A DNA stretch of 34,040 nucleotides from Clostridia bacterium (GCA_019689585.1 JADGHG010000007.1:1-34040); one strand, 5' to 3'; numbered from the stretch's first letter, positions 10,167 to 15,899 are shown. Translations and numbers: made by a program. The notes: generated by a model from the letters alone, not told the origin.

Positions 10167-10529
10167 GTGGAGGCGTGCCGGGCCGTCGAGCCCCACGAGG
10201 CGCCCGAGCACGTGCGGCGGGCGGCCCGGGGCAAGGCCGGCGAGGAAGGGCTGCACGCGCTCGCCGACGGGTTCTGGCTCCTTGCGGGGCCGCTCGAGCG
10301 GAGCGCCGGCCACCGCTTCCGGCTCGTGGCGGCGGAGCTCGTCCCGGGCGGCGCGGGCGGCGCGCGCGCCGTGCGGGCGGTCGTGGAACACGAGCGGCCG
10401 GCTTCGGGTACGCCGACCGCTCAAGTGCTGACGCGTCCCACGCTCCTCCTCGCCACGGCGCCCGGGCTCCGGCTGGAGGTCGTCCTGCGCGAGCCGGACG
10501 GGAGCGAGAGGAGCTATCGGGCCGTCTGA
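10167..10529 (+). CDS. Small unknown protein at the end of the pdh operon
   Basis: A 120-residue protein I do not recognise, 11 bases after pdhC. The start is taken as GTG 10167, preceded by GGGGGCGAGG. It has a helical N-terminus (EACRAVEPHEAPEHVRRAARG), the aromatic motif DGFWLLAGP, and a C-terminal half with alternating hydrophobic stretches typical of a small beta-rich fold (HRFRLVAAELVPGG, TLLLATAPGLRLEVVL). No Cys, signal peptide or membrane segment. Its last 16 bases overlap the convergent ArsR gene. Operon position is the only clue to function. Confidence 0.55.
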   Translation: MEACRAVEPHEAPEHVRRAARGKAGEEGLHALADGFWLLAGPLERSAGHRFRLVAAELVPGGAGGARAVRAVVEHERPASGTPTAQVLTRPTLLLATAPGLRLEVVLREPDGSERSYRAV

Positions 10530-11107
10530 GAGCCGGCCGCGCCGCCCGCGCTCGAGCCGCAGCCTTCCTCGCAGCAGCAGCAGCACGAGCCGCCCTCCTC
10601 GCACTCGGGGCAAGAGGCCCCGGAGTGCGAAGCCACCCAGGCGGAACCGTCCGCCATCCGCTCCACCGCGTCCACCTCCCCTCCCTCGGCCGCGCGCGCC
10701 GAGGCCGAGCCCGCCGGGTGCGCGCGAAGCCGCGCAGCGCGCGCGCGGGCGGCCAGCCCGGCGAGCGCCCGGGAGACGGCCTCCAAGGCCTCGGGGAGGA
10801 CCTCGTAGTAGGTCCAGCGTCCGCACCGCGTGGCGCGCACGAGGCCCGCCTCGGTGAGGACGCGCATGTGGTAGCTCACGGTCGGCTGAGCCAGGCCCGT
10901 GAGCGCCTCGAGGTCGCAGGCGCACACGGCCTCGCCGCGCGCAGAGCCAAGCCCGGGCGTCCCGCGCGCGAGGACCCGCACGACCTGCAGCCGGTGAGGG
11001 TCGCCGAGCGCGCGGAAGGCCGCCGCGAGATCGGCCGCGCCTGCGCCCTCGCCTCCGCCCTCGCCGGCCGGGCGCCCGGTCGCCTCCACCGGACGCGTGA
11101 CGGCCAT
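10514..11107 (-). CDS. ArsR/SmtB-family metalloregulator with polycysteine tail
   Basis: A 197-residue winged-helix repressor of the ArsR/SmtB family. The core is at about residues 27-112: FRALGDPHRLQVVRVLA, then VCACDLEALTG with the CxC pair Cys62/Cys64 at the arsenic/cadmium site of the family, then the recognition helix QPTVSYHMRVLTEAGLV and the wing. After an Arg/Ala-rich helix, the last 35 residues hold eight cysteines: CPEC at 166-169, five consecutive Cys at 175-179, and Cys183. The classical family is about 100-120 residues, so the tail is an addition. ATG 11107 is chosen because the conserved fold follows and an operator lies just upstream, but AAGGAG abuts the ATG directly, an odd spacing. 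No resistance gene is adjacent. Confidence 0.85.
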   Translation of the reverse strand: MAVTRPVEATGRPAGEGGGEGAGAADLAAAFRALGDPHRLQVVRVLARGTPGLGSARGEAVCACDLEALTGLAQPTVSYHMRVLTEAGLVRATRCGRWTYYEVLPEALEAVSRALAGLAARARAARLRAHPAGSASARAAEGGEVDAVERMADGSAWVASHSGASCPECEEGGSCCCCCEEGCGSSAGGAAGSQTAR

Positions 11108-11115
11108 CTCCTTCG

Positions 11116-11133
11116 GATCGAAGATATTCGATC
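11116..11133. promoter_or_regulatory. Palindromic operator upstream of the ArsR gene
   Basis: GATCGAA (11116-11122) and TTCGATC (11127-11133) are a perfect 7+7 inverted repeat around GATA, in an AT-rich patch 9 bases before the ArsR start. Size and placement fit the imperfect palindromes bound by ArsR/SmtB dimers, so autoregulation is likely. A -10-like GAATAT lies inside it on the minus strand. Confidence 0.6.
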
Positions 11134-11502
11134 TATTGGTCGGCCGCAACCGCCCGTAGCGGCCGAAGCGTTTGTCGATGGTCCGGTGCGGTGCCATCCG
11201 GCCGGGAACATGAGGCTTCGCGCTGACGCTGACCGTCTGGTGTCGCCGCGGCGCTTCGGGGCGTCGAGCTACGATCCCTCGTGAGCCGGTGGCCCCTCGT
11301 AACCTTCGCCGGGCCGGCCTCGACCACCCCGCCCGCTTGAGCATGGCAGATCTATAACGAGAGCGACCGGGAACGCCAGCGCGGCCATGTGTACGCCAGC
11401 CTCCAGGAAAGCTCCGGCCCGGCGCAGATTGAAGGTTTACTGACTCGTTAGCGGATAGCCCCTCGCGTCCCGATACTACCAGCGTGGAAGAGGAGGCCGA
11501 AA
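11134..11502. other. Intergenic region with island left junction
   Basis: 369 bases without an intact gene. The first about 200 are ordinary high-GC DNA. From about 11340 the composition shifts to the lower-GC style of the following cassette. It includes the remnant reading frame listed separately. A weak TTGAAG (11429) and a GATACT (11472-11477) could be promoter elements for the cassette, but their spacing to partners is poor. Confidence 0.5.
11341..11451 (+). pseudogene. Possible 3' remnant of an unidentified gene
   Basis: A 36-codon open stretch without a start, ending at TAG 11449-11451. It reads like a normal soluble protein tail (IYNESDRERQRGHVYASLQE, then SGPAQIEGLLTR). Its composition matches the island and not the host. 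The frame is closed by TGA at 11338-11340, right where composition changes, so it may be the broken end of a mobile-element or former cassette gene. Family not recognised. Confidence 0.3.
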
Positions 11503-12096
11503 ATGGGTGGCGAACGCTGGTCCATGCGCTGGAAGCCCTCGACGGTCACAGCGAGGCAGGCCGCCGTCGTCCGGGCGCTCTACGAGCTCGGCGGCGCTGA
11601 GTCCGCAGTGGATACTGAGGACATCGCGATTCAGGCGCACCGCCTCCTGGATGGCGCGTTCACGTGGCGCAAGTACCCTCAGTACATCAATCCAGACCTG
11701 GTGCGGATCACGCTTGTCGACGCCTCCCGCATGGGACTTGTCACCGGGAACGGCAGGAGTGGATGGCGTCTCAGCTTCGAGGGCATTTGCGTCGCGACCC
11801 GCGAGGGCCCTGAGCTCCTTCGCGCGGCGCGTGCAGCCCGGCGTCGTAACCCGCTCGCGGAGCGCATCGCACAGAGCGCGGCCGTACGCACGGCCCGGCG
11901 GGCAGGCGTAGAAGCCGTCACGTTCCGGGATGCTGAGCGCCTCTTCGGCCTGAACGGATACGTGAGGAACCGCCGACTGCGTCGGAGCGCGATGGAGCGA
12001 GGTCTGGAAGCTGTGCGCGGTGAGCCAGATCTCTACGCCATCGTGAAGTCGATTGCCGATCGGTTCGCCCCAGAGCTGGAGGCAGGGCAAGGATGA
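11503..12096 (+). CDS. Island protein A: winged-helix-like, unknown
   Basis: A 197-residue protein without a family name I can give. Residues about 14-100 look like a winged-helix domain: a first helix TARQAAVVRALYELGG, intervening helices around TEDIAIQAHRLL and INPDLVRITLVDASRMGLV, and a wing ending GRSGWRLSFEG. Residues 105-150 are Arg/Ala-rich and helical (LLRAARAARRRNPLAERI), suiting nucleic-acid contact. The C-terminal 45 residues are helical. The ATG follows GAGGAGG at good spacing. The stop overlaps the next ATG (ATGA), so it is coupled to the GHKL ATPase. Predicted role: DNA-binding or regulatory partner of the cassette (inference). Confidence 0.75.
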   Translation: MGGERWSMRWKPSTVTARQAAVVRALYELGGAESAVDTEDIAIQAHRLLDGAFTWRKYPQYINPDLVRITLVDASRMGLVTGNGRSGWRLSFEGICVATREGPELLRAARAARRRNPLAERIAQSAAVRTARRAGVEAVTFRDAERLFGLNGYVRNRRLRRSAMERGLEAVRGEPDLYAIVKSIADRFAPELEAGQG

Positions 12097-13766
12097 CACG
12101 GCAGCTTCGTAGCCACGCGGCGCGCGACGTCCTCGCGGTGGCCGAGGAGTTCAGCAACCTTAACAAGGCGGTTTGGGAGTACGTGACGAACGGTCTCCAG
12201 TATGTGGCCCCCGGCCGCCCTCCGCGCATCGACGTCTCCATCGACACGCGCAGGGAGCGCATAGCCATCCAGGACAACGGGCGCGGCATGGACGCGGCCG
12301 ATTTGGACCGCTTCCTCATGATGCACGCTCCCAACGAGGAACGGCTGCGCGGGAACCTCGGGCGTGGTCGGTTCGGAACGGGAAAGGCAGCCGCCTTCGG
12401 GATCGGCAAGATCCTTCGTGTGACCGCCGTCCGAGGAGGACTGCTGTGGGAGATCGAGATCCGGCGCGCTGATCTCGAGGCGCTCGACCGCAACCCTCAA
12501 GCCGTTGACGCTCCTGTCCGTTCGTTGCGCGAAGGGGTGCGGACTAGTCGACCCGACGGGGTTTTGATCGAAATCGAGGGCTTCCGCATTCAGGTACGCC
12601 CGAGGGACGTGGAGCGGTTGCGACGCTTCATGGCAGCACGCCTGCGCCGTTTTCCCGCCGGGAGCGTCCGCGTCAACGGGCGTCCTTGTGTGCCGCCGGT
12701 CATCGACCGGATCCCGCGATACGACCGTCACGCCGATGCGCCGCCCGAGGTAGCTCGCCTCACGGGCCCGGCGCATTTAGAGTTGCACGTCGCGGTGGGG
12801 CCTCTCGATGCCGACTCTCGCGGCGTTTACGCGTGGATTTCAGGTCAGCGGCTAGCTTTAGGTCTCTGCGGCAACTCGGATACCCCTTGGGCTCATCGGA
12901 TATTCGGGGATGTCGACGCCGACGACCTTGATCCCGATCGCCACCCCGACTGGCCGGCGCCGTTCAGCCAAGGTCGCCGAGAGGAGATCAACCTCGACAA
13001 CCCCGGAGCCGCCGCATTGTGGAACTGGGTTGGCTGGGAGATCCAAAAGCTCATCCACGAGCTAGAGGAAGAGGAGCGCGCGAGGCGGGATATCGAGGAA
13101 CAGCGCCATCTTCGCGCTATCGCCCGCGAAATCGCCAGGGTCCTGAACGACGACTACCAGCGAGATGAAGACATCTCGCTTCAACGCTCGCGGTACACGG
13201 CCGGGCCTGACCCGAATCGGCTGCCTAATGCGGTTCCGGGGCAGGTCGAGGCACTCGTGCTTGGGGGCGAGGAACTCGCCGCAGCATCCGATCTTCCACG
13301 CTCCGCGGACGGCGAGGGCTTAAGTAGCGGCCCTCCGGGACCGAACGATGGACGCGAGCCGTCCTTGGAGCGCGATGATGCGGGGGAGCTGAGCGGGCAT
13401 AGGGAAGTAGCGAGCCCCGGTGCTCCGCGGCGCCAAGGTGGCTTCGCGATCGAGTTCCGGCACCTCGGGGAGGGCGACGATCGGGGCCGGTATGAGGCCG
13501 CGTCTCATGCGATCGTCATCAACTTGGACCATCCTGAGGTCCGGTGGGCGCGGGACATGGGTGGGGACGTGGAGCGGACCGTGTTTCGGGAGATCGCCGT
13601 GGTGGAGTACGCGTTTGCGCTTGGTCAACACCAGGCCGAGCGTGAAGGCGGCCCGCTCGCGATCGAATCCACTCGGGTCCTGGTGGATACGCGCGAGCGG
13701 GTTCACCGCGTGACGCGACGCCTCCCGGCGTCACGGGACTCGCGGAACGATGAGGCTACGCCTTGA
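12093..13766 (+). CDS. Island protein B: GHKL (HSP90/MutL/MORC-type) ATPase
   Basis: A 557-residue ATPase. The Bergerat fold is clear: N-box Glu29...Asn33 (EYVTN), G1 motif DNGRGM at 61-66, G2 glycine loop GRGRFGTGK at 90-98. Residues about 180-300 would be a transducer-like domain (FPAGSVRVNGRPCVPP, then YAWISGQRLALGL). Residues 315-355 form a charged coiled coil (QKLIHELEEEERARRDIEEQ). A low-complexity linker (about 385-450) leads to a C-terminal domain with ASHAIVINLDHPEVRW and ERTVFREIAVVEYAFAL. Proteins of this plan are ATP-driven clamps, and MORC-like ones occur in prokaryotic conflict systems. No nuclease motif is seen here. It overlaps both neighbours (4 and 17 bases), implying stoichiometric expression. 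Confidence 0.82.
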   Translation: MTRQLRSHAARDVLAVAEEFSNLNKAVWEYVTNGLQYVAPGRPPRIDVSIDTRRERIAIQDNGRGMDAADLDRFLMMHAPNEERLRGNLGRGRFGTGKAAAFGIGKILRVTAVRGGLLWEIEIRRADLEALDRNPQAVDAPVRSLREGVRTSRPDGVLIEIEGFRIQVRPRDVERLRRFMAARLRRFPAGSVRVNGRPCVPPVIDRIPRYDRHADAPPEVARLTGPAHLELHVAVGPLDADSRGVYAWISGQRLALGLCGNSDTPWAHRIFGDVDADDLDPDRHPDWPAPFSQGRREEINLDNPGAAALWNWVGWEIQKLIHELEEEERARRDIEEQRHLRAIAREIARVLNDDYQRDEDISLQRSRYTAGPDPNRLPNAVPGQVEALVLGGEELAAASDLPRSADGEGLSSGPPGPNDGREPSLERDDAGELSGHREVASPGAPRRQGGFAIEFRHLGEGDDRGRYEAASHAIVINLDHPEVRWARDMGGDVERTVFREIAVVEYAFALGQHQAEREGGPLAIESTRVLVDTRERVHRVTRRLPASRDSRNDEATP

Positions 13767-15699
13767 AGCGCTAGCTCAGGCCGTGTGGCCGGAGGAGTGG
13801 CCACACGGCCCCGTTTCTTCCCTGCGGCCCGGTCAGCCGCTGCCCGCAGATACATTCGCCCCGCTTACCCCGCAGACGATCCATCAGTTGACAGAGCGGC
13901 TTCGCCAGAAGATTCCTCCGGCCACCAGTCAACTCCGTCGGGTACTGTCCTTACCAGTGTGGTGGCTGTCCTGGCTTCCCGCGCACCCGCTTGTCATTGA
14001 TCGGCTTCCCAGCAGGGTCCGCACGACCTTTCGGCGACGGGGCATCTTAGCCGACGGTTCCCGTCTCCGCGAGCTTACAGGTCACCGGTTTCTCTCCCTT
14101 CGCGGACTGGGCTGGCGGTCGCTCGTGGATCTTATCGGACTTGAAGAGTCCCTGCTCACAATGTCTCGCCACGGACAGACCCATACCCGAGCGCCGGCGC
14201 GGCCGACGAGCAGAGTTGGCAGGGCCACGCCGCAACCATGGACGCAAGCAAATTGCGACGCGACGACGCCACACGCGGCCGTGCCTCAACATCGGGCGAG
14301 GGCCGAGCCAATCGTCGCCAAATCCCTGGATGATGAGATCGAGCTCATTCTTAAGCGCTGCACCCGCAGCGCTCGGGACGCGGACATCGTCTCGCGCCGC
14401 TTTGGCCTCCGCGGGCCCGGGACAGAAACATTGCAGCAGATCGCAGACCGCCACGGCCTGACGCGCGAGAGGGTTCGCCAAGTCGTCGCGGCGTTCGAAC
14501 GACGGGCAAGACGGCAAGCCCGAATGATTCAGCCTGTGTACCTCGCGCGTCTCGTCGACGAGCTCAGGGGGCAATCCCCCATCACCCGTGACACAGCCGA
14601 ACGGATCTTAGCTGGTCACAGCGGTACTTCCCGGCGCGTAGACGGTCTCCTCCGGCTGGCAAGTTATGTGCACGTACAGATCGACGGCGTCCACGTGCTC
14701 GAAAATCGTGTAAACCCCGGCCTGCGACACGCCCTGCGCGCCGCCATGAGGGTGAGCGGCGTAGGGCACATAGATGAGGTTCGAGCCATCGCTCGGCAAT
14801 GTGCGCGCCCATGGTTGGACGACAACAATGCGGACCCTGAGAGGATCGCCGTGCGCCACGCGGTGCGTGCGGACTGCACATTGGCTTGGCTCGACGCCGC
14901 AGAGACCTGGTTCTGGCGCCCAAATGCACCCAGGCAGCCAATCGAGACCCGCGTGCGGAAGATGCTTTGGGTCGCGTCTGAGCTCACATTGGGCGAAATT
15001 GTGGCCGGGCTTGGCCGAGACCGTCGCCTCTCCGGCCGCGTGCCCCCCGATCACGTCGTGGCCGCCCTGCTTGGCCGCTTGCGCAGCGTGGTGGAGACGG
15101 CTGATGGCCGGTACACGCTGGCCCCCCAAGCGCTAGGCTCAGATCAGTCACCACTGAGTAGCTCTGAGGCCCTCGTCGTCACCGCCATACGGCATGAGGG
15201 CGACGCCGCAAGTTTGCGCCGCATGGAGGAGCTCCTCGTCACGACCGAGCTGATGACCATGCCCACCCTGCATGCGCTTCTGGCGGGACCACTATTCTTT
15301 CGACCGGCGCCACGCGTGTACAGCCCTGTCGGCGGCCGGCCGACGCGAGATGCGCTGGCACGTGCGCTGGAACGCTCCCGACCTACGCGGAATCGAGTCG
15401 CCATTCGGAGGATTGACGCCGATATCCTTGAGGCTCGGATTACGGCCGGAGATGCTCTAGTCATGCGGGGCATGCTCTCGCTCCCGTCCGAGATCGCTCC
15501 GCTTTTCCGATCGGACTATAAGCTCCACCATGACGGCTTTGCCAGCACCATCCGAACCAAGGGCACAACCCAGTGGGGGTATTCACCCTTAGTACGACGT
15601 CTTCGGCTGCGGCGGGGAGACGTGTTGTCGCTCGCAATATCCGTGCGGGAGCGCGCGATCGTGGTAGTGGTCGTGGAGCGAGCAGGGGGCCGGGTCTGA
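13750..15699 (+). CDS. Island protein C: alpha-CTD-like plus sigma-70 region-4-like fusion
   Basis: A 649-residue protein. Residues about 80-134 resemble the RNA polymerase alpha C-terminal domain (LVIDRLPSRVRTTFRRRGI, then LRGLGWRSLVDLIGLEE). A polar Pro/Thr-rich linker follows. Residues about 197-256 match sigma-70 region 4: DADIVSRRFGL, TLQQIADRHGLTRERVRQ, AAFERRARR, with the HTH recognition helix at about 237-254. Regions 2 and 3 are absent, so it is not a complete sigma factor. Residues about 265-500 hold two wHTH-like segments (VHVQIDGVHVLENRV; VVETADGRYTLAPQAL). The C-terminal 90 residues look like a small beta barrel (MRGMLSLPSEIAPLF, then RLRLRRGDVLSLAI). ATG 13750 overlaps the ATPase stop by 17 bases; the Shine-Dalgarno is poor, so coupled translation is likely. 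Confidence 0.8.
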   Translation: MRLRLEALAQAVWPEEWPHGPVSSLRPGQPLPADTFAPLTPQTIHQLTERLRQKIPPATSQLRRVLSLPVWWLSWLPAHPLVIDRLPSRVRTTFRRRGILADGSRLRELTGHRFLSLRGLGWRSLVDLIGLEESLLTMSRHGQTHTRAPARPTSRVGRATPQPWTQANCDATTPHAAVPQHRARAEPIVAKSLDDEIELILKRCTRSARDADIVSRRFGLRGPGTETLQQIADRHGLTRERVRQVVAAFERRARRQARMIQPVYLARLVDELRGQSPITRDTAERILAGHSGTSRRVDGLLRLASYVHVQIDGVHVLENRVNPGLRHALRAAMRVSGVGHIDEVRAIARQCARPWLDDNNADPERIAVRHAVRADCTLAWLDAAETWFWRPNAPRQPIETRVRKMLWVASELTLGEIVAGLGRDRRLSGRVPPDHVVAALLGRLRSVVETADGRYTLAPQALGSDQSPLSSSEALVVTAIRHEGDAASLRRMEELLVTTELMTMPTLHALLAGPLFFRPAPRVYSPVGGRPTRDALARALERSRPTRNRVAIRRIDADILEARITAGDALVMRGMLSLPSEIAPLFRSDYKLHHDGFASTIRTKGTTQWGYSPLVRRLRLRRGDVLSLAISVRERAIVVVVVERAGGRV

Positions 15700-15899
15700 C
15701 GGAGCCGGCTCGACCATTGTGGGTCGGACCCAAGGACGAACGCGCAGCCACCACGCTCGGGTCCTGGGACGCAGCCCTCTCTTCATGGAGCCCAGTCTTC
15801 TGCACACTGCCGTCGGTGACGACATCCGACTGCGCCGAAACGGTCTTTGGTCTCGCCTATTGGGCGCCGGCTACGCGCCGCGCCCCCGGCCCGGGCCGG

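Follow-up and report, generated by a model that had tools for sequence, protein, structure and literature searches.

A rare, horizontally mobile three-gene module combining a GHKL ATPase with predicted DNA-reading proteins

Three overlapping genes, termed here g1, g2 and g3, lie between housekeeping operons of a Clostridia bacterium (GCA_019689585.1), and the initial annotation of this locus proposed that they encode a defence or conflict module that could not be matched to any named system. This raises two questions: whether the three genes form a genuine module, and what such a module would do. The window, that is the whole stretch of DNA analysed, comprises 34,040 nucleotides (JADGHG010000007.1:1-34040). 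All three reading frames are intact and in frame, and the coordinates, frames and overlaps of 4 and 17 bases given in the initial annotation are exact (Table 1).

Insertion of the cassette and spread of the trio

The genes had been placed in an island of lower GC, and the composition of the window bears this out, with a GC content of 0.64-0.68 in the cassette versus 0.72-0.79 outside it. GC at third codon positions (GC3) is a sharper sign of foreign origin than overall GC, with values of 0.75, 0.74 and 0.70 for g1, g2 and g3, respectively, versus 0.95-0.98 in the operons on either side (upstream dehydrogenase E2 gene, 0.98; downstream operon, 0.97-0.98). An ArsR-type gene adjoining the cassette (window 10514-11344) has an intermediate GC3 of 0.89, and no close counterpart of it was found at the corresponding site in two relatives of the same taxonomic order (G001 and G007). 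Searches detected no tRNA, no structured RNA and, around the cassette, no convincing attachment-site repeats. Separately, a perfect-looking 13-pair hairpin at window 13779-13810, at the beginning of the g3 reading frame and close to its overlap with g2, possibly serves translational or transcriptional control.

Comparison with relatives revealed an empty site. In G001 (locus L140), genes are collinear with the window on both sides; between the end of the E2 gene (8552) and the start of the dehydrogenase gene (8990) lie 0.44 kb that contain one short reading frame only. The corresponding distance in the window is 5.7 kb and encloses a similar short frame, the ArsR gene and the trio. In G007 (L141:8440-12000) the same site is occupied by a phosphonate-type ABC transporter cassette, showing that it accepts different insertions. 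When 399 genomes of the phylum were searched, including the window's own, a g2 homologue was absent at E 1e-6 from all 398 others, and the best match to g2 among 60 relatives reached only 1.6e-5. The empty site and codon composition thus identify the cassette as an insertion foreign to this genome, and the empty site and the 0/398 count rule out that the trio is a core gene set of the lineage.

Table 1. Features of the cassette, numbered from the first nucleotide of the window
Feature	Position	Strand	Description and basis
Inserted low-GC cassette, ArsR gene to Leu/Glu-type dehydrogenase gene	11345..15899	.	GC, GC3, empty site in G001/L140
g1	11503..12096	+	197 aa; winged-helix protein with helical C-terminal half; new family; AlphaFold2 pLDDT 92
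g1 winged-helix DNA-binding domain	11551..11772	+	Residues 17-90; three helices and beta wing; AlphaFold2 secondary structure
g2	12093..13766	+	557 aa GHKL ATPase; central protein of the module; 4-base overlap with g1
g2 GHKL ATP-binding domain	12150..12722	+	Glu29, Asn33, DNGRGM, GRGRFGTGKAAAFG; HATPase_c_3 1.8e-14; presumed S5-like transducer after
g2 C-terminal domain	13425..13766	+	Family-conserved motif I-x-INLDHP...E-x2-AF-x-EYA; alignment of homologues
g3	13750..15699	+	649 aa predicted multi-domain DNA-reading protein; 17-base overlap with g2
g3 alpha-CTD-like module	14005..14139	+	Residues 86-130; iterated family profile 2.6e-12 in window protein
g3 sigma-70 region 4	14302..14526	+	Residues 185-259; Pfam Sigma70_r4 2.6e-6; Foldseek prob 1.0
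g3 tandem winged-helix / HARE-like region	14527..15330	+	AlphaFold2 model; weak Foldseek matches
g3 C-terminal B3-like (EcoRII-N type) fold, tentative	15367..15696	+	Foldseek

To locate further copies of the trio, approximately 85,000 species genomes (GTDB) were scanned at the DNA level for a pattern encoding RGxxGTGKxAAF, a motif of g2. Of the 71 loci obtained, 59 code for a homologue of g2 (lowest E 3e-79), and 46 of the 59 also have a g1 homologue. When the context of the loci was analysed, with 8-20 kb of flanking DNA per locus, both g1 and g3 were found next to g2 in 30/30 loci, excluding solo loci and those cut at a contig end, and the trio was recovered from at least nine bacterial phyla. 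Cultured bacteria that carry all three genes include Maritimibacter alkaliphilus HTCC2654 (L106) and Allopontixanthobacter (L109). The order of the genes varies, with three layouts observed (g1-g2-g3 as in the window, g3-g1-g2, and g3 divergent); the linkage of the trio thus survives rearrangement. Spacing is tight, mostly overlaps or gaps within 20 bp, and the g1-g2 junction varies between a spacer of 15 bp and an overlap of 86 bp among the 29 loci in which both genes were called. The three genes also co-diverge, with Mantel r values of 0.873, 0.852 and 0.847 for the gene pairs and none of 2000 permutations as high.

The tree of g2 intermixes phyla, requiring 18 label changes versus a possible minimum of 8, and the window protein forms a long divergent branch whose best identity to any homologue is 35%. 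In samples of three trio-containing classes, g2 was present in 2/241, 4/249 and 3/289 genomes, counts that include loci already known, so that even there it occurs in about 1% of genomes; one genome (G869) contains a truncated g2 only. The distribution of the trio is accordingly accessory, rare and patchy. Taken together, the 30/30 co-occurrence, the mixing of phyla and the empty site support a conserved, tightly coupled and horizontally mobile module, and the coupling and apparent mobility that the initial annotation read from a single locus hold across genomes.

Several observations made during these searches concern individual loci. Just upstream of the module, eight or nine independent loci have a reading frame of 75-86 residues that follows the pattern F..LA..RTNKAL..I..I.NLSNR..Y.Y, located upstream of g1 in L079, L040, L095, L058, L071, L090 and L064 and upstream of g3 in L111; as the window lacks it, this fourth gene is optional. 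Two adjacent frames make up the g3 homologue of Arthrobacter sp. 18067 (L118:5969-8490). A Rhizobium leguminosarum plasmid encodes a protein distantly similar to g2 (L030:11956-13500); its gene adjoins that for an FeeM-type N-acyl amino acid synthase and is not accompanied by g1 or g3. Searches with g3 alone were rejected as a route to homologues, returning housekeeping sigma factors and a Pseudomonas megaplasmid gene. Two genomes that are not related to each other (L113 and L126) carry the trio close to the dnaG-rpoD region, and apparent second copies of g3 there proved to be RpoD beside DnaG. A phage-borne origin was also discarded: no g2 relative turned up in phage records, and in viral contigs neither the pattern nor a search for relatives recovered one, a short unrelated frame being the only pattern match.

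Domain content of the encoded proteins

The assignment of g2 to the GHKL ATPase superfamily is secure. Pfam matches to HATPase_c_3 and HATPase_c (3.3e-6) are both above cut-off, and all of the ATP-binding motifs noted in the initial annotation are present. Glu29, Asn33, Gly65, Met66, His78 and Asn81 are invariant in 48/48 homologues, and all six lie outside the motif by which homologues were selected (R91-G92, GTGK and AAF). The closest solved structures, at weak scores, are the ATPase domains of topoisomerase, HtpG and MutL. The coiled coil suggested earlier was not confirmed, as it corresponds to a sub-threshold Pfam match (0.062) over part of the region only. The additional C-terminal domain is conserved across the family alignment, and its approximately 110 residues include near-invariant polar positions (N477, H480, E505, Y506 and R539). 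This domain has no nuclease profile match in Pfam and no convincing match in the PDB; it could nonetheless be catalytic, and the absence of a nuclease is thus not proven.

Both flanking proteins had been described as DNA-binding-like, and both fit that description. The AlphaFold2 model of g1, built from a 44-sequence alignment (43 homologues besides the window), is of high confidence and shows a winged-helix domain of three helices with further helices after it. Foldseek aligned it with DtxR- and MarR-type winged helices (prob 0.9-1.0), although the best E value of 0.06 means that none of these matches is significant, and no match to g1 was found in Pfam, PADLOC or NCBIfam.

For g3, the match to Sigma70_r4 is above cut-off, and both halves of the proposed alpha-CTD/sigma-region-4 fusion were recovered, but that description is incomplete: the AlphaFold2 model (37 sequences; pLDDT 82) adds winged helices in tandem and a B3-like fold at the C-terminus, and relatives carry one to six alpha-CTD-like modules, the longest array being six consecutive modules in a 1362 aa homologue (L078:1063-5148). 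Pfam RNA_pol_A_CTD is matched by 23 of the 37 family members, the window protein not among them. The R-x-x-N motif by which alpha-CTDs bind UP elements is common in the g3 modules; the window copy retains the Arg only. The sigma region 4 of g3 superimposes on that of sigma-A with a Foldseek prob of 1.0 and an rmsd of 1.7-1.8. In housekeeping sigma factors the helix equivalent to TRERVRQ of g3 reads the -35 box, and within it R239, E240 and R243 are conserved in 36/36 ungapped homologues, R241 in 35/36 and Q244 in 37/37. Sigma region 2 was not found in any of the 37 homologues and region 3 only weakly in one, so that g3 does not combine the regions 2 and 4 that define a sigma-70 factor. From the lack of region 2 it follows that g3 should read promoter DNA but should not start transcription.

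The remainder of g3 is less clearly assigned. Its middle region gave weak Foldseek matches to tandem winged-helix proteins, Vps25 and Nse1/Nse3, and one homologue matches Pfam HARE-HTH at 1.1e-5. The beta-rich C-terminal domain resembles the plant B3 domains of VAL1, FUS3 and LEC2 (prob 0.90-1.00, E 0.04-0.18), a tentative assignment for which a sequence-level search gave no confirmation.

Genomic context and proposed function

We compared 125 near neighbours of the trio from non-syntenic loci with 125 distant genes on larger contigs of the same genomes at E 1e-10. The neighbours matched 139 PADLOC families versus 9 for the control genes, a difference to be read qualitatively, since the families are redundant and several models may match one protein. 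This agrees with the expectation that the trio would be enriched in defence islands. Among the neighbours are LmuB (3.7e-105, beside the trio in L107), Dsr1 (1.2e-64, immediately downstream of g2 in L130), a type II methyltransferase (5.4e-125, beside g3 in L115), members of the AbiEi, SoFic and DruM families, and integrase and transposase domains. Many other neighbours are housekeeping genes, and some matches are false, with DnaG matching reverse-transcriptase models and RpoD matching MzaA at 5e-75; these models are thus unspecific. In the window itself, no other defence gene lies beside the cassette. The conflict role originally proposed therefore stands in part, backed by the context of homologous loci and not by that of the window. 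As that context is mixed, we infer rather than observe a defence or conflict role, which we consider reasonably likely and which would probably be directed against phages or plasmids. A conflict role would also be in keeping with the prokaryotic GHKL proteins of MORC/paraMORC type, which have been predicted mainly in restriction systems (Iyer et al. 2008, PMC2292703).

Our preferred model treats the trio as a mobile conflict module whose GHKL clamp is directed to promoter DNA. In this model g2, which has a MORC/MutL-like domain order, would bind ATP, dimerise and close as a clamp on DNA. It would be aimed by g3, whose alpha-CTD module or modules and sigma region 4 would recognise a promoter by its UP element and -35 box, while the winged helices and B3-like end may provide further contacts to DNA or to partners and g1 may act as a small winged-helix adaptor on the same complex. 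Since g3 lacks the sigma parts for opening DNA or holding core RNA polymerase, the complex would mark or clamp promoter DNA instead of starting transcription. The outcome would most likely be that incoming promoter-rich DNA is silenced or excluded, a prediction favoured over cleavage because no nuclease domain was found. Joining complex formation, clamp closure, promoter targeting and defence in one statement, we judge the chances that the full model is right to be evenly balanced. If true, components of the host's transcription machinery would direct a MORC/MutL-class GHKL clamp, tying promoter recognition to foreign-DNA control and offering a bacterial parallel to eukaryotic MORC silencing, the origins of which are an open question.

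It is unlikely, in our estimation, that the module instead works like a restriction system, with the g2 C-terminal domain, or a partner encoded elsewhere, cutting DNA on clamp closure and g1 and g3 reading sequence or modification. The strong conservation of the g2 C-terminal domain and its polar residues would suit such a role, as would the methyltransferase gene adjoining the module in one locus (L115) and a weak similarity of the g2 ATPase region to the restriction enzymes BbrUII and HgiDII, and MORC-type GHKL proteins are mostly found alongside nucleases and SFII helicases (PMC2292703). However, the trio is not constantly accompanied by a nuclease, helicase or methyltransferase, the C-terminal domain matches no nuclease by profile or structure, and the restriction-enzyme similarity covers the GHKL region only, at 35 bits versus a cut-off of 550.

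Some observations that count against a conflict reading come from Chloroflexota and Poribacteria. Synteny around the trio is conserved in sponge/marine Chloroflexota (L108, L110, L114 and L119) and in Poribacteria (L117 and L136), as for a stable chromosomal function. Chloroflexota additionally carry solo g2-like genes that lack g1 and g3 and fall into two groups (L035, L045 and L055; L039, L050, L054, L059 and L069) of 73-89% internal identity, in conserved housekeeping contexts, and these genes are possibly domesticated. Together with the assembly of g3 from the promoter-reading parts of RNA polymerase, this would suit a chromosomal transcription or nucleoid regulator, in which g3 blocks or tunes host promoters and g2 is an ATP-driven DNA organiser, serving regulation and not defence. 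The rarity and patchiness of the trio, the foreign composition and empty site of the window cassette, and the enrichment of defence and integrase neighbours all argue against this, and we doubt that it is the correct account.

Phage T4 is the precedent for one further alternative: in T4 infection the alpha-CTD is ADP-ribosylated, and AsiA acts on sigma region 4. That g3 is a decoy of these two RNA polymerase parts, the ones most often subverted by phages, and that tampering with it would activate g2 and so halt the cell or the infection, is very unlikely, even though Foldseek also matches g3 to sigma-A region 4 bound by the phage protein G1 ORF67 and DNA-reading residues are kept in both parts, since a plain DNA reader would equally keep its DNA-contact residues and no killing or effector domain was recognised. 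Were it true, it would constitute a bacterial integrated-decoy immune sensor comparable to those of plants.

Comparison with known systems

Searches of the trio against PADLOC v2, NCBIfam 20 and Pfam returned domain-level matches only, and no named system combining GHKL, sigma region 4 and winged-helix proteins was found in the literature, a search limited largely to open-access publications. The trio, whose gene order the initial annotation could not match to a named system, corresponds to no system in PADLOC v2 or NCBIfam 20 either.

In the MZA anti-phage system, too, a GHKL ATPase (MzaB, 5.7e-6) occurs together with a protein that contains sigma region 4 (MzaA, 6.1e-9). The scores are far below the model cut-offs (35.3 bits versus 800 for MzaA and 25 bits versus 850 for MzaB), the Z1 helicase and AIPR of MZA have no match among the three cassette genes, and g3 is set apart by its alpha-CTDs, winged helices and B3-like end. 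An identity of g3 with MzaA was rejected, as the MzaA model matches ordinary RpoD as well, and the match to g3 therefore reflects sigma region 4 only.

MORC and paraMORC proteins resemble g2 in having an N-terminal GHKL domain, a presumed S5 part and a C-terminal extension, and in being sporadic, horizontally moved and conflict-associated (PMC2292703). The motif that defines MORC proteins, GhXhhpXXRhl in the S5 domain (PMC2292703), is not present in g2; read by eye, the window protein has GVYAWISGQRL, with the Arg one place late, and the family has GIxIxSxGxxH. Unlike MORC/paraMORC operons, the trio has no constant SFII helicase, endonuclease or methylase (34 loci, up to 20 kb; none in the window cassette), its partners being g1 and g3.

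More limited likenesses were found to three other groups of proteins. PglW of BREX type 2 is a defence protein that likewise contains an alpha-CTD-like domain and several winged helices (PMC12839542), and 16 of the 37 g3 homologues match the PglW model, in L078 via the alpha-CTD region; g3 differs in lacking kinase and NERD matches, and the cassette lacks the BREX partner genes (PglX/Y/Z). VcSduA, a GHKL-Shedu protein with experimentally shown anti-phage activity and an N-terminal GHKL ATPase (PMC12137116), carries a C-terminal DUF4263 nuclease in the same polypeptide, whereas g2 has no DUF4263 match. The similarity of BbrUII and HgiDII to g2 lies in their GHKL-like N-terminal region (4.3e-9, residues 45-185) and ends after it, at 35.5 bits versus a cut-off of 550, and the cassette has no cognate methyltransferase. 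No tested family therefore takes in the trio; its nearest relatives are MZA and the MORC/paraMORC operons, from both of which it departs in their defining features, and it provides a three-gene signature that is not yet catalogued and escapes defence finders.
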